The notes below the pieces were generated by a model. That model did no database searches and was not told the DNA's origin. It saw only the letters and a list, made by a program, of their open reading frames with translations. This document shows positions 6,847-10,884 of a stretch of 64,000 nt of DNA, one piece after another. Position 1 is the stretch's first letter. Each line of letters starts with the position of its first letter. Location of the stretch: contig NZ_FOMJ01000003.1 of the NCBI RefSeq assembly GCF_900112605.1, forward strand, positions 62,001-126,000. Reading direction: 5' to 3'. The stretch comes from Thiohalospira halophila DSM 15071 (GTDB lineage Bacteria > Pseudomonadota > Gammaproteobacteria > Thiohalospirales > Thiohalospiraceae). The translations under genes and the position numbers were made by a program.

Positions 6847-7271
6847 GTCGCCTCCGCCGCGTTCCGGATCACCTCGGGTATGGCACAGGGACGGAACCGC
6901 TCGCCGTCGATGCAGGCCACGCGCACACGCCCCCGGCAGAGGACCTCTCCCGCTGCCGAGCGGATCTCCTGCAGGAAGTCGATACGTGCGCGGGCCAGGT
7001 TGTCGATGGTCGCGGTCACCGTCAGTTCGTCGTCAAAGCGGGCCGGCTTCAGGAAGTCCAGCTCCATGGAGCGCACGGCGAAGAGAACCCCGACCTCCGC
7101 GGCCAGCTCCCGCTGGCCGAAACCCAGCGAGCGCAGCCACTCGGTCCGGGCGCGCTCCATGAAGGCGAGGTAATTGGCGTGATAGACCACGCCGCCGGCG
7201 TCGGTGTCCTCGTAGTAGACCCGCACCGGCCAAGAAAATTCCGTCAAGTCCGCTCTCCACAATACAGGCAT
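6843..7271 (-). CDS. ybgC: Tol-Pal associated acyl-CoA thioesterase YbgC
   Basis: Hotdog-fold thioesterase encoded first in the tol-pal operon. The catalytic segment YYEDTDAGGVVYHANY carries the family Asp. As annotated it has 142 residues from the ATG at 7271. A TTG at 7247 (LTEFSWPVRV...) looks like the better start: it has a GGAG Shine-Dalgarno six bases upstream, aligns with the short N-terminus of E. coli YbgC, and leaves about 20 nt of leader from the candidate promoter at 7275-7303, whereas the ATG has no ribosome-binding site. The function is certain; the start is not. Confidence 0.93.
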   Translation of the reverse strand: MPVLWRADLTEFSWPVRVYYEDTDAGGVVYHANYLAFMERARTEWLRSLGFGQRELAAEVGVLFAVRSMELDFLKPARFDDELTVTATIDNLARARIDFLQEIRSAAGEVLCRGRVRVACIDGERFRPCAIPEVIRNAAEAT

Positions 7272-7343: not shown

Positions 7344-7372
7344 AAAAAAAGAGCGGCCGGCGAACCGGCCGC
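7344..7372 (-). terminator. Rho-independent terminator of the predicted small RNA and the glr operon
   Basis: On the minus strand an 8-bp perfect stem (GCGGCCGG/CCGGCCGC) with a UUCG tetraloop is followed by UCU and a run of seven U. This is one of the strongest intrinsic terminators in the window. It lies about 290 bp after the glrR stop codon. Confidence 0.92.
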
Positions 7373-7461
7373 CAATCACCGGAGGGCGTCACCGCATCCC
7401 CATCGTCACGGCGGATACGGCTGCCCACGCTTGGCTCCCGTCGACCCGTCCCCGGGTCGCG
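7344..7461 (-). ncRNA. predicted sigma-54-dependent small RNA, GlmY-like in control and architecture
   Basis: A sigma-54 promoter at 7472-7487 predicts a start near 7461, and an intrinsic terminator ends transcription at about 7344, giving a ~118-nt RNA with no plausible reading frame. Three stem-loops can be drawn. SL1 (7443-7458) is GACCCG/CGGGUC with loop GGGA. SL2 (7384-7426) pairs GGGC with GCCC, then after an asymmetric AG/UGAC internal loop pairs CCGUAUCC with GGAUGCGG. SL3 is the terminator. Two GlrR-type boxes and an IHF-like site lie upstream, and glrR itself is the preceding gene. Enterobacterial GlmY is likewise a sigma-54/GlrR/IHF-controlled RNA. I see no primary-sequence proof of homology to GlmY, so function in GlmS control is inference. 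Confidence 0.7.
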
Positions 7462-7471
7462 CCACTGTGGT

Positions 7472-7487
7472 TGCAGCTCCCGTGCCA
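7472..7487 (-). promoter_or_regulatory. sigma-54 (RpoN) promoter
   Basis: The minus-strand sequence TGGCACGGGAGCTGCA matches the -24/-12 consensus TGGCACG-N4-TTGCA at all but one position. The GG and GC dinucleotides have the required spacing (G of -24 at 7485, C of -12 at 7473). The predicted start is near 7461. Confidence 0.8.
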
Positions 7488-7504
7488 ACTTTCGGGAAAC
7501 CGCC

Positions 7505-7517
7505 GATCAGGGAGTTA
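7505..7517 (+). promoter_or_regulatory. candidate IHF site between the GlrR boxes and the sigma-54 promoter
   Basis: GATCAGGGAGTTA fits the IHF core WATCAA-N4-TTR with two mismatches. It is centred about 50 bp upstream of the predicted start, where a DNA bend would bring upstream-bound GlrR to the sigma-54 holoenzyme. Confidence 0.45.
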
Positions 7518-7549
7518 CGCGGCACTCCAGCCCTCTTCCCGGATACCGC

Positions 7550-7567
7550 TGTCGCACCGCGACGACA
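7550..7567. promoter_or_regulatory. GlrR-type activator box (perfect TGTC-N10-GACA)
   Basis: The plus strand reads TGTC, ten bases, GACA, the exact recognition pattern reported for enterobacterial GlrR. It is centred about 97 bp upstream of the predicted RNA start, a usual distance for a sigma-54 activator. glrR ends 93 bp away. Confidence 0.7.
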
Positions 7568-7615
7568 GGCAACGGCATCCGGGTCGCCATCGCACCGCGT
7601 GCCGCGCCTGTCCGG

Positions 7616-7633
7616 CGTCGCTCCGCGGCGACA
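7616..7633. promoter_or_regulatory. second GlrR-type box (one mismatch)
   Basis: The plus strand reads CGTC-N10-GACA, one base from the TGTC-N10-GACA pattern. It is centred 66 bp (about six helical turns) upstream of the perfect box, so both could be bound on the same face of the DNA. Confidence 0.5.
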
Positions 7634-7659: not shown

Positions 7660-9021
7660 CTATTCCTGAAACCGGGCCGGGTCGAGGCCGTGGCGACTGA
7701 GCAGCCGGTAGAATTCGGTCCGGTTGCGCCCGGCCAGCTCCGCGGCGCGGCGCACCTGGCCGGCGGTGATGGTCAGCAGGCGCTCCAGGTAGTCCCGCTC
7801 GAAGGCGCGGCGCGCCTCCGCCAGCGTCGGCATGGGGGCGGCCGCGCTGTCCAGCGCCTCGCGCACCAGGGAATCGGGCACCAGCGGTGTGGTCGCCAGG
7901 GCCACCACCTGCTCCACTACGTTGTAGAGCTGGCGGACATTCCCCGGCCAGGGCGCCTCGCTCAGGGTCGCCAGGGCCTCGGGGGCGAAGCCGGTGAGTT
8001 CGCGGCCGTAGCGCGCCGCCAGCTCCTCCAGGAAGGTCTCCGCCAGCAGCGGGATGTCCTCCCGCCGCTCCGACAGGGGCGGCAGGGTCAGGGAGACGAC
8101 GTTGAGCCGGTAGAAGAGGTCCTCGCGGAAGTCCCCGGCGCCCACGGCCGCCTCCAGGTCGCGGTGGGTCGCGGCGATGATGCGCACGTCCACCGGGATG
8201 TCCTGGGTCCCGCCCACGGGCCGCACCCGCCGCTCCTGGAGAACCCGCAGGAGCTTGACCTGCAGCCCCGGCGGCATGTCGCCCACCTCGTCCAGGAAGA
8301 GCGTGCCGCCGTCGGCCTCCCGGAACAGGCCGGTATGGTCGCGCTCGGCCCCGGTGAAGGCGCCCTTGCGGTGGCCGAAGAGCTCCGACTCCAGCAGCCC
8401 CTCGGGCATCGCCGCCGTGTTCACGGCCACAAAGGGCCCCTGCGACCGCGGGCTGGCATCGTGGATGGCGCGCGCCAGCAGCTCCTTGCCGGTGCCGCTG
8501 GCGCCGCGGATGAAGACCCCCGCCTCGGTGGCTGCCACCTGGCCGGCACGATCCAGGACGGCCTGCATGGCGGGGCTGCGCGTCCGGATCCGGGAACACC
8601 ACTCCGCCGCCTCCGGTCGGCGCTCGCCGCCGAGGCTCAGGGCACGCTGGATCTCGGTCAGCAGTTCGTCGGCGTCGAAGGGTTTGCCCAGGAAGCCGAA
8701 GACCCCCTCCCGGGTGGCCTCCACCGCCTCGGGGATGGAGCCGTGGGCGGTGAGGATGAGCACCGGCAGGCCGGGGTGGCGCTCCCGCAGGAGGCGGAAG
8801 AGCGCCATGCCGTCCATGCCCTCCATGCGCAGGTCGGTAATCACCAACTCCGGCCGTGCCTCGGCCATGGCCTCCAGGGCGCCCTCACCGCTGGTGGCGG
8901 TGGCCACCTCGTAGCCGTTGGCCTCCAGGCGCAGGGTGAGCAGGCGGAGCAGACTGGTGTCATCGTCCACCAGCAGCAGGCGCGGGGCGGCCACCTCGGC
9001 GGTCGCGGGGCTACTGCTCAT
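7660..9021 (-). CDS. glrR: Sigma-54-dependent response regulator GlrR (QseF)
   Basis: NtrC-type activator of 453 residues. It has a receiver domain (about 14-125, phospho-acceptor D63 in LVITDLRM), an AAA+ domain (about 145-375) with Walker A GASGTGKE and the sigma-54-contact loop GAFTGA at 220-225, and a C-terminal Fis-type HTH (about 410-453, QVRRAAELAGRNRTEFYRLL). The ATG at 9021 overlaps the lipoprotein gene by 11 bp; an in-frame ATG at 9126 would add 35 non-homologous residues. The gene order kinase-lipoprotein-regulator is that of glrK-yfhG-glrR. Its likely target promoter follows immediately at 7472-7487. glnB, the usual downstream neighbour in enterobacteria, is absent. Confidence 0.93.
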   Translation of the reverse strand: MSSSPATAEVAAPRLLLVDDDTSLLRLLTLRLEANGYEVATATSGEGALEAMAEARPELVITDLRMEGMDGMALFRLLRERHPGLPVLILTAHGSIPEAVEATREGVFGFLGKPFDADELLTEIQRALSLGGERRPEAAEWCSRIRTRSPAMQAVLDRAGQVAATEAGVFIRGASGTGKELLARAIHDASPRSQGPFVAVNTAAMPEGLLESELFGHRKGAFTGAERDHTGLFREADGGTLFLDEVGDMPPGLQVKLLRVLQERRVRPVGGTQDIPVDVRIIAATHRDLEAAVGAGDFREDLFYRLNVVSLTLPPLSERREDIPLLAETFLEELAARYGRELTGFAPEALATLSEAPWPGNVRQLYNVVEQVVALATTPLVPDSLVREALDSAAAPMPTLAEARRAFERDYLERLLTITAGQVRRAAELAGRNRTEFYRLLSRHGLDPARFQE

Positions 9022-9496
9022 CCCCGCGCCCCCGGTCCATGAGACGCCGTTCCAGCTCCTTGAGCGCCTCCAGGTCCTTCTGGCTGGCGGCCAGCTCCCC
9101 CTCCAGCATGCGGATCTCGGCGGCATCCCGGCTGGCGCGGCGCAGCTGGGTGTCGATCACGGCCACGAGGTCCCCCGCATCCGCCGGTGGCGCGGCCCGG
9201 CAGGGCTCGAAATCGCTCACCACCGTGGCCGGCTCGGGGGGCTCCACCGCCGGGTGGGTCCGCAGCATGGCCTGGTGGAGGCGGTCGCGATCGCAGGCCC
9301 CCTCCGCCGGCTCCAGCCGACGCAGGCGCTCCTCGGCCAGGCCGGGGGAGAGCGCCAGGAGGTCACGATAATCGGTCAGCAGTGCCGACTGCTCCAGGCC
9401 GGCCCCCGCGCCCCGGGGCAGGCCGGCGCAGCCCGCCAGCAGCAGGGCGGCCAGCGACAGGGCGACAGACAGGTGGTTCACGATGGTTCGGGACAT
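9011..9496 (-). CDS. Outer-membrane lipoprotein, QseG/YfhG position
   Basis: Small lipoprotein (161 aa) between the kinase and regulator genes, overlapping both (19 bp with glrK, 11 bp with glrR). A lipoprotein signal ends in LLLAGC with Cys23. The remainder has an Asp/Glu/Arg-rich helical part and a C-terminal coiled coil (about 125-160). In enterobacteria the gene in this position, qseG/yfhG, encodes an outer-membrane lipoprotein that controls activity of the GlrK/QseE sensor. Sequence similarity is not obvious by eye, so the QseG assignment rests on position and type of protein. Confidence 0.75.
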   Translation of the reverse strand: MSRTIVNHLSVALSLAALLLAGCAGLPRGAGAGLEQSALLTDYRDLLALSPGLAEERLRRLEPAEGACDRDRLHQAMLRTHPAVEPPEPATVVSDFEPCRAAPPADAGDLVAVIDTQLRRASRDAAEIRMLEGELAASQKDLEALKELERRLMDRGRGDEQ

Positions 9497-10884
9497 GGCG
9501 GCAGGCCCTCCGGCTTGCGTGGCAGAGTCAGGCGGAAGTGGCTTCCCCGCTCCCTTCCCGGGACCAGCTCCAGCTCCCCGCCCAGGGAACGGGCCGACTC
9601 GCGGGCGATGGCCAGCCCCAGGCCGGATCCCCCCTGGGGCGGCGGGGTATCCCCGCGGAAGAAGGCGTCGAAGATACGCTCCCCCTCCGCCGGCGGAACG
9701 CCGGGCCCGGTATCCATCACCTCCAGCACGGCCGTATCGGCTCCGCGCCGGAGGGTGACCCGGACCTCGCCGCCCCGGGGCGTGAATTTCAGGGCATTGG
9801 AGAGGAGGTTGTCCACTATAGTCCGCAGGGTGCCGGCCTCCCCGGCCACCCGGGCCGGGGTCAGATCGGTGGTCAGCTCGATCTCCCGGGCCCGGCGCAC
9901 CGGCTCGCTGGCGGCGATGACCTCGGCGACCACGCTCTCCAGCCCCGTCTCCGCCGTCGGTGGCGGCTCCTCGTCATCCCGGAGCCGATTGAAGCGTAGC
10001 AGATTCTCGATGAGGTCCTGGAGGCGCTCGGCATTGTCGCGGATGATGCCGGCGATCTCCGCCTGTTCCCGGGTCATGGCGCCGGCGGTTCCGTCGTGGA
10101 GCAGCCCCGCCCCCTCCCGGATCCCGGCCAGGGGGGTCTTGAGTTCGTGGGAGACGTGGCGGAGGAAGCGCGCCTTCTGGGCATCCGCCGCCGCCAGGCG
10201 GTGACGCAGCCACTCCAGCCGCTCGCCCAGCTCCTCCAGGTCCGCCGGACCGTGGATGGTCACCGCCTCCGGGTGCCCCTCCCCCAGCTGACGGATGGCA
10301 CGATCCAGCTGGGAGATGGGCCGGTTCACCCGGTGGACCAGCAGCACCGCCACCAGCAGGGTCAGGGCGAGGACCGCCACCACGGCGATGAGGGCCACCT
10401 CGCGGCTGGAGCGGGCCTCCGCCTGCAGGGCCGCCGCCCGGTCGTCGATGCGTTCGCGCTCCTCCCGGCCGGCCGCCTGCACCGACTGCCGCAGCGCCTG
10501 GAAGTCGGAGGCCACCGCCGCCGGCCGGGGCCTCCCCTCGCTCAGCCGCTGGTGGAGCTCCGCCTCCCGGGCGCGCAGTTCGTCACCCTTCAGGCCGGTG
10601 GCCGCCTCCCGGAAGTCGGCCCGCGCCTCGTCGTAGGCGGCGAGCAGTTCCGGATCCTCGAGGATGGCGTACTGCCGCGCCAGCCGCTCCAGGCGGTTCA
10701 CGGCGGCGGTGAGCTCCCCGCCACGGTGGGTGGTCTCCACCGCCTCGGCCACCACCGTCCGGCTGGCGTCGGCGAAGTGGTCCACGCGGTCGGTGACCCA
10801 GGCCAGGGCCCCGGCCAGCGGCAGCACCACCAGGGCGAGGCCGTAGAGCATCAGGCGGAGGGTGGAGCGGGGTCGGCCTGCCAT
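9478..10884 (-). CDS. glrK: Sensor histidine kinase GlrK (QseE)
   Basis: Membrane sensor kinase of 468 residues: helix TM1 (about 12-30), a periplasmic helical domain (about 31-160), TM2 (about 162-184), HAMP (about 185-238), DHp with phospho-acceptor H246 in FLRHVSHELKTP, and a catalytic ATPase domain with N box NLLSNALKF, DTGPGV and GLGLAI. It phosphorylates GlrR. It starts 22 bp after ruvB with no visible promoter between, so it may be read from the ruv transcript. In enterobacteria the system responds to envelope state. Confidence 0.92.
   Translation of the reverse strand: MAGRPRSTLRLMLYGLALVVLPLAGALAWVTDRVDHFADASRTVVAEAVETTHRGGELTAAVNRLERLARQYAILEDPELLAAYDEARADFREAATGLKGDELRAREAELHQRLSEGRPRPAAVASDFQALRQSVQAAGREERERIDDRAAALQAEARSSREVALIAVVAVLALTLLVAVLLVHRVNRPISQLDRAIRQLGEGHPEAVTIHGPADLEELGERLEWLRHRLAAADAQKARFLRHVSHELKTPLAGIREGAGLLHDGTAGAMTREQAEIAGIIRDNAERLQDLIENLLRFNRLRDDEEPPPTAETGLESVVAEVIAASEPVRRAREIELTTDLTPARVAGEAGTLRTIVDNLLSNALKFTPRGGEVRVTLRRGADTAVLEVMDTGPGVPPAEGERIFDAFFRGDTPPPQGGSGLGLAIARESARSLGGELELVPGRERGSHFRLTLPRKPEGLPPCPEPS

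Follow-up and report, generated by a model that had tools for sequence, protein, structure and literature searches.

The glrR–ybgC interval of the window

The window, i.e., the whole 64,000-nucleotide stretch of Thiohalospira halophila DNA analyzed here, carries on its minus strand an operon in which a kinase gene comes first, followed by those of a small lipoprotein and a response regulator. The interval that follows (7344–7633) is located directly upstream of ybgC-tolQRAB, a linkage absent from the preliminary description of this DNA. That description had placed two boxes, an IHF-like site, a -24/-12 promoter and a terminator in the interval, and all of them were found on the minus strand where they had been claimed. 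The features of the locus are as follows:

9478..10884, minus strand: glrK-like (qseE) histidine kinase gene, whose product shares 32% identity with E. coli GlrK (E 1e-61)
9011..9496, minus strand: gene of a small lipoprotein (lipobox LLLAGC) in the qseG position between the kinase and the regulator
7660..9018, minus strand: glrR (qseF), response regulator with receiver, AAA+ and HTH domains (Pfam and NCBIfam)
7616..7633, minus strand: GlrR-type box 1, TGTCGCCGCGGAGCGACG, one mismatch to TGTC-N10-GACA, read from the sequence
7550..7567, minus strand: GlrR-type box 2, TGTCGTCGCGGTGCGACA, perfect TGTC-N10-GACA, read from the sequence
7505..7517, minus strand: IHF-like site TAACTCCCTGATC, matching the consensus at 7 of 9 positions, at an offset shared with other cassettes
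7472..7488, minus strand: sigma-54 (-24/-12) promoter TTGGCACGGGAGCTGCA, composed of TTGGCACG-GGAG-CTGCA, from sequence and scan
7344..7461, minus strand: predicted non-coding RNA of 118 nt, no ORF, two stem-loops plus terminator (z -2.7 versus shuffles)
7381..7385, minus strand: CCUCC (within GCCCUCCGG), located about 40 nt before the 3' end, which may be an anti-Shine-Dalgarno seed
7345..7373, minus strand: intrinsic terminator GGCGGCCGG-TTCG-CCGGCCGC followed by T7, with a 9-bp stem and a UUCG loop
6843..7271, minus strand: ybgC (tol-pal thioesterase), first gene of ybgC-tolQRAB, TIGR02799 above cut-off

The best NCBIfam match of the regulator was NF011695, the GlrR model, at 600 bits, under the cut-off of 763. 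The protein shares 57% identity with E. coli GlrR, and the two have in common AGRNRTEFY.LLSRH in the HTH (recognition-helix region). Judged by these comparisons, the window regulator is a true GlrR relative. The accessible text of a survey of QseE-QseG-QseF (GlrK-QseG-GlrR) systems describes them as widespread in Gammaproteobacteria, Betaproteobacteria and Acidithiobacillia (PMC12691602), and the window operon resembles the systems described there in the order of kinase, small lipoprotein and regulator and in the HTH of GlrR. It differs in the protein at the qseG position (161 aa), which matched nothing in Pfam or NCBIfam and was not significantly similar to E. coli QseG. The rpoN gene, whose absence had been named beforehand as decisive against a sigma-54-dependent transcript, was found in the genome, clustered with ptsN and rapZ. 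As expected for a member of the GlrR regulon, TGTC-N10-GACA boxes lie 5' of a -24/-12 promoter in a genome that encodes both GlrR and RpoN.

The two boxes are 66 nt apart, the same spacing as in most GlrR cassettes from other genera. From the position of the -24/-12 promoter, the transcription start (+1) is predicted near 7461, and the distance from there to the terminator end at 7344 is exactly 118 nt, the value originally given. Within the 64 kb of the window, the full combination of elements was encountered a single time, and 40 shuffled windows contained no instance of it. Strict box pairs (GTCG-N9-GAC twice) occurred only twice in the whole 2.69-Mb genome, namely in the window cassette and at G000:C3:54534-54619. 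The IHF-like element taken alone would be weak evidence, which is strengthened by its fixed offset in other cassettes.

The second box pair of the genome belongs to a cassette outside the window (G000:C3:54534-54686; L268:2035-2187) in which the boxes are spaced by 68 nt and the -24/-12 promoter is TGGCACACCTCCTGC; it precedes a 114-aa ORF (L268:2228-2572) without a known family. As for ybgC, the ORF call is probably too long: according to an alignment of ybgC from the same family, a TTG start is likely at 7247 (minus strand), with the ribosome-binding site GGAGAGCGGA.

Distribution and outputs of the cassette

Loci with glrR were drawn from named GTDB genomes and from a sample of 370 genomes of the class, and 130 of these loci from Beta- and Gammaproteobacteria were scanned for paired boxes with a sigma-54 promoter 3' of them. 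This layout was revealed in 65 of the 130 loci, versus 0–1 per shuffled set of 130, and the same scan recovered the E. coli glmY promoter as a positive control. The boxes were situated most often about 160–180 and 92–113 nt 5' of the -24 element, and their spacing was 65–68 nt in 66 of the 74 loci of a looser scan. An IHF-like site 30–33 nt upstream of the -24 T was present in 52 of 76 aligned cassettes; the mean IHF-like score of the 76 was 7.8 of 9, versus a null value of 6.47 ± 0.08. The cassette usually lies 160–230 nt 3' of the glrR stop codon; in several genera, Colwellia and Dechloromonas among them, it is found beyond glrK on the opposite strand. As judged from the scanned loci, the place adjoining glrR is the common one for the cassette in Beta- and Gammaproteobacteria.

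Because the layout recurs among genomes, the offset of the IHF-like site is fixed and only two box pairs exist genome-wide, the predicted control of the window cassette by GlrR is well supported. The preliminary description had proposed a short non-coding transcript dependent on GlrR, IHF and sigma-54, located right after glrR in a non-enterobacterial genome, and had asked for conservation of the promoter layout in related genera. The layout is kept in dozens of genera, and the predicted transcript gains support from the identity of GlrR, the presence of rpoN and this conservation.

Outputs were assigned by similarity among 68 high-scoring cassettes. EF-hand proteins and OpgG (MdoG) accounted for 15 cassettes each, BON-domain proteins for 7 and acyltransferases of exosortase systems for 6, while 3 outputs were bactofilin-like. 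The protein families were identified on representatives, the bactofilin one by inspection only. In the window and at the loci L127, L129, L131 and L138 no ORF follows the promoter; a terminator is located 111–314 nt past the +1, and then comes ybgC, so that ORF-less terminated cassette transcripts before ybgC occur in the families of these four loci as well. L143 and L194 may be further cases without an ORF.

Several of the protein outputs deserve a separate description. In Polaromonas, Hydrogenophaga and their relatives, the start codon of opgG is at the predicted +1 or at most 1 nt from it, as if the mRNA were leaderless (the opgG-type loci are L043-L049, L055, L056, L060, L064, L081, L093 and L095). 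Genes of small secreted EF-hand proteins stand behind the GlrR cassette at L203, L204, L210-L212 and many other loci and constitute a recurrent predicted output. PEP-CTERM/exosortase-associated acyltransferase genes were found behind it at L132, L133, L094, L158 and L173, often with a long leader, which suggests a link between GlrR and exosortase systems.

In the papers found, only glmY and rpoE are named as QseF targets for E. coli (PMC6075780), and glmY is named for Proteus (PMC8745638). The E. coli rpoE promoter is similar to the window cassette as a sigma-54/QseF target tied to envelope stress, but its output is a protein gene, not an RNA (PMC6075780). The accessible text of the QseE-QseG-QseF survey deals with cluster distribution, not with GlrR targets outside enterobacteria (PMC12691602). 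Our literature search returned no GlrR targets reported outside enterobacteria, which is weak evidence, as most subscription journals lay outside its coverage, and a search for sigma-54-dependent small RNAs returned no matching report. S17 of Bordetella was considered as a counterpart and ruled out, being a sigma-A-dependent small RNA (sRNA) at a different locus.

GlrKR (QseEF) is known from far outside the enterobacteria, but the targets named in the papers found (glmY and rpoE) are enterobacterial. The present survey offers concrete candidates for GlrR targets in dozens of genera, and the predicted targets, envelope proteins and small RNAs, point to the purpose of the system. It also shows a conserved control module whose output changes, and it suggests that GlmY represents one solution among several and not the ancestral arrangement. 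In a broader scenario, to which we give an even chance, the module of two boxes, IHF site and sigma-54 promoter would be ancient and long kept beside glrR or ybgC, with an exchangeable output comprising envelope proteins and several unrelated sRNAs; the window RNA would then be one of the independently arisen GlrR-controlled envelope sRNAs, and GlmY the enterobacterial case.

Comparison with GlmY

GlmY of the Enterobacteriaceae (glmY-glrK-qseG-glrR locus) and the window RNA have in common a sigma-54 promoter, TGTC-N10-GACA boxes, an IHF site and linkage to glrKR, and the window RNA would, like GlmY, be an sRNA of 100–200 nt with an intrinsic terminator. The arrangement of the boxes is different: E. 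coli glmY has three (33 and 63 nt apart), and the window has two, 66 nt apart. These shared control elements, together with the RapZ and GlmS genes found in the genome, are in favor of an orthologue or functional equivalent of GlmY, a possibility raised in the preliminary description. Such an RNA would act as a decoy for RapZ, thereby protecting a GlmZ-like RNA and raising GlmS.

The following comparisons argue against this equivalence. When tested against shuffled sequences, the window RNA was similar neither to GlmY (p 0.995) nor to GlmZ (p 0.40) of E. coli, in contrast to the GlmY–GlmZ control (p < 0.005). In an Rfam scan of the window region with E up to 10, the top matches were below the gathering threshold and two of the three fell on the terminator; a scan of 17 related loci gave no matches. 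Among the partners to be expected, RapZ and GlmS were found, but a GlmZ-family RNA (RF00083) was detected neither in the genome nor in the family, while the E. coli control was positive. In E. coli RapZ, K281-R282-K283 are reported to be required for RNA binding (PMC5737377); the RapZ of this genome ends in VQVRHREVP, without the LEKRK tail. Since glmS starts 4 nt past the glmU stop codon, it has no leader that such an RNA could activate. Finally, the locus is downstream of glrR and before ybgC, not upstream of glrK. GlmY was therefore rejected as the identity of the window RNA by sequence, Rfam, GlmZ, RapZ tail, glmS leader and locus alike, and we regard the orthologue or equivalent as very unlikely. 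According to these comparisons, the predicted window RNA is not the same RNA as GlmY, although the control of the two is parallel.

The predicted RNA and its linkage to ybgC

The window transcript has the attributes of an sRNA: a predicted promoter of its own, an intrinsic terminator and no ORF, and its fold was better than that of 198 of 200 shuffled sequences. A 50-codon ORF does span the transcript in one frame, but it starts inside the -24 element, ahead of the +1; no other ORF of useful size is present in the transcript, and none was found in the sRNA-type relatives either. That the transcript codes for a small protein is thus extremely improbable.

The ORF-less transcripts carry a C-rich motif of the type CCUCC, CUCCC, UCUCC or ACUCC. 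In 12 of 13 sRNA-type transcripts it is situated 38–52 nt from the 3' end, a count to be read with the facts that the motif was defined after looking and that approximately 20–50% of single sequences would carry it by chance. This motif could pair with ribosome-binding sites.

For the sRNA cassette, the better-conserved linkage among the genomes compared is ybgC rather than glrR. In genus g3 of the same family, glrR is located elsewhere, and the cassette with an ORF-less transcript of 140–202 nt stands directly before ybgC in all seven genomes with ybgC; it is missing from both g2 genomes with ybgC. The earlier view of regulator and target as a self-contained unit accordingly holds in part: adjoining glrR is common for the cassette in Beta- and Gammaproteobacteria, but in this genus of the same family the sRNA cassette is at ybgC without glrR, and elsewhere the cassette drives protein genes.

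In g3, the 3' part of the RNA (approximately 65 nt) is nearly invariant and the 5' part is variable. A covariance model built from this 3' module matched the sampled g3 genomes at E 1e-26 or better, and other matches were weak and scattered (best E 2e-5), with none to the window RNA. Between the two genomes of genus g217 (family f72), identity within the RNA is 63.3% over the first 30 nt and 97.3% from +31 onward to the end, versus 94.1% for the coding sequence of glrR and 61–85% for most of the flanking non-coding DNA. Because of the 3' invariance in g3 and the identity in g217, at least two genera have ybgC-linked RNAs, predicted to be GlrR-controlled, that are conserved elements. In both, conservation of the 3' half exceeds that of its surroundings, which a genuine sRNA would be expected to show.

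The window RNA itself resembles no other sRNA compared here, either pairwise or by covariance model. When 37 relatives were searched with the DNA of the interval, the only matches were pieces of the glrR end and one of 30 bases. The 36 pairwise tests among sRNAs of several lineages revealed no homology, and the weak pairs among them (window–L127, p 0.035; L129–L127, p 0.035; L127–GlmY, p 0.005) were treated as chance.

The linkage to ybgC, which is kept in the family even where glrR is elsewhere and occurs in other families too, would also fit a leader with an attenuator, in which a regulated terminator would let the GlrR-driven sigma-54 polymerase pass into ybgC-tolQRAB, so that the cassette would control the Tol-Pal operon in cis. 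Against this stand the strength of the terminator and the lack of an evident antiterminator pairing; g3 has a conserved sigma-70-like element (TTGCCT ... TACAGT) after the terminator and no leader sequence in common with the window, and in g217 a small ORF intervenes between the RNA and ybgC. We consider such a leader improbable. The cassette may alternatively be a relic that once drove an EF-hand gene, since lost, with a functionless short transcript left over. The g217 sRNA indeed occupies the slot in which most genomes of the sister genus g74 carry an EF-hand gene between the cassette and ybgC, and G351 (L139) and G087 (L140) resemble deletion remnants with the terminator retained. Unlike in L139 and L140, however, the boxes, IHF-like site, promoter and terminator of the window are all intact, and the ORF-less RNAs of g3 and g217 are under strong sequence constraint; a relic is therefore an unlikely explanation. 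Both possibilities are rated as less likely for the window than an sRNA, which is the preferred reading.

We consider it likely that the window locus encodes a new trans-acting sRNA under GlrR control, which probably acts by base-pairing via its C-rich segment, with transcription and targets being predicted. The promoter elements, the terminator, the lack of an ORF and the conservation of the cassette are sequence-based, and to these we would add transcription, a role of phosphorylation, IHF action and target pairing as inferred steps. The GlrK-QseG-GlrR-type two-component system would phosphorylate GlrR, presumably upon envelope sensing as in E. coli. GlrR would bind the boxes at 7633-7616 and 7567-7550, IHF would bend the DNA at 7517-7505, and GlrR would then drive sigma-54 RNA polymerase at 7488-7472 to produce an RNA of approximately 118 nt that stops at the terminator ahead of ybgC. 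Acting in trans, the RNA would most likely pair via GCCCUCC with the ribosome-binding sites of envelope genes, and this may provide GlrR with a post-transcriptional arm.

The small ORF of g217 between the sRNA terminator and ybgC, seen at L023 and L301, is conserved, has a length of 55 aa and encodes an N-terminal hydrophobic segment (MRSLRSFHLLVVLALGMLILS...).
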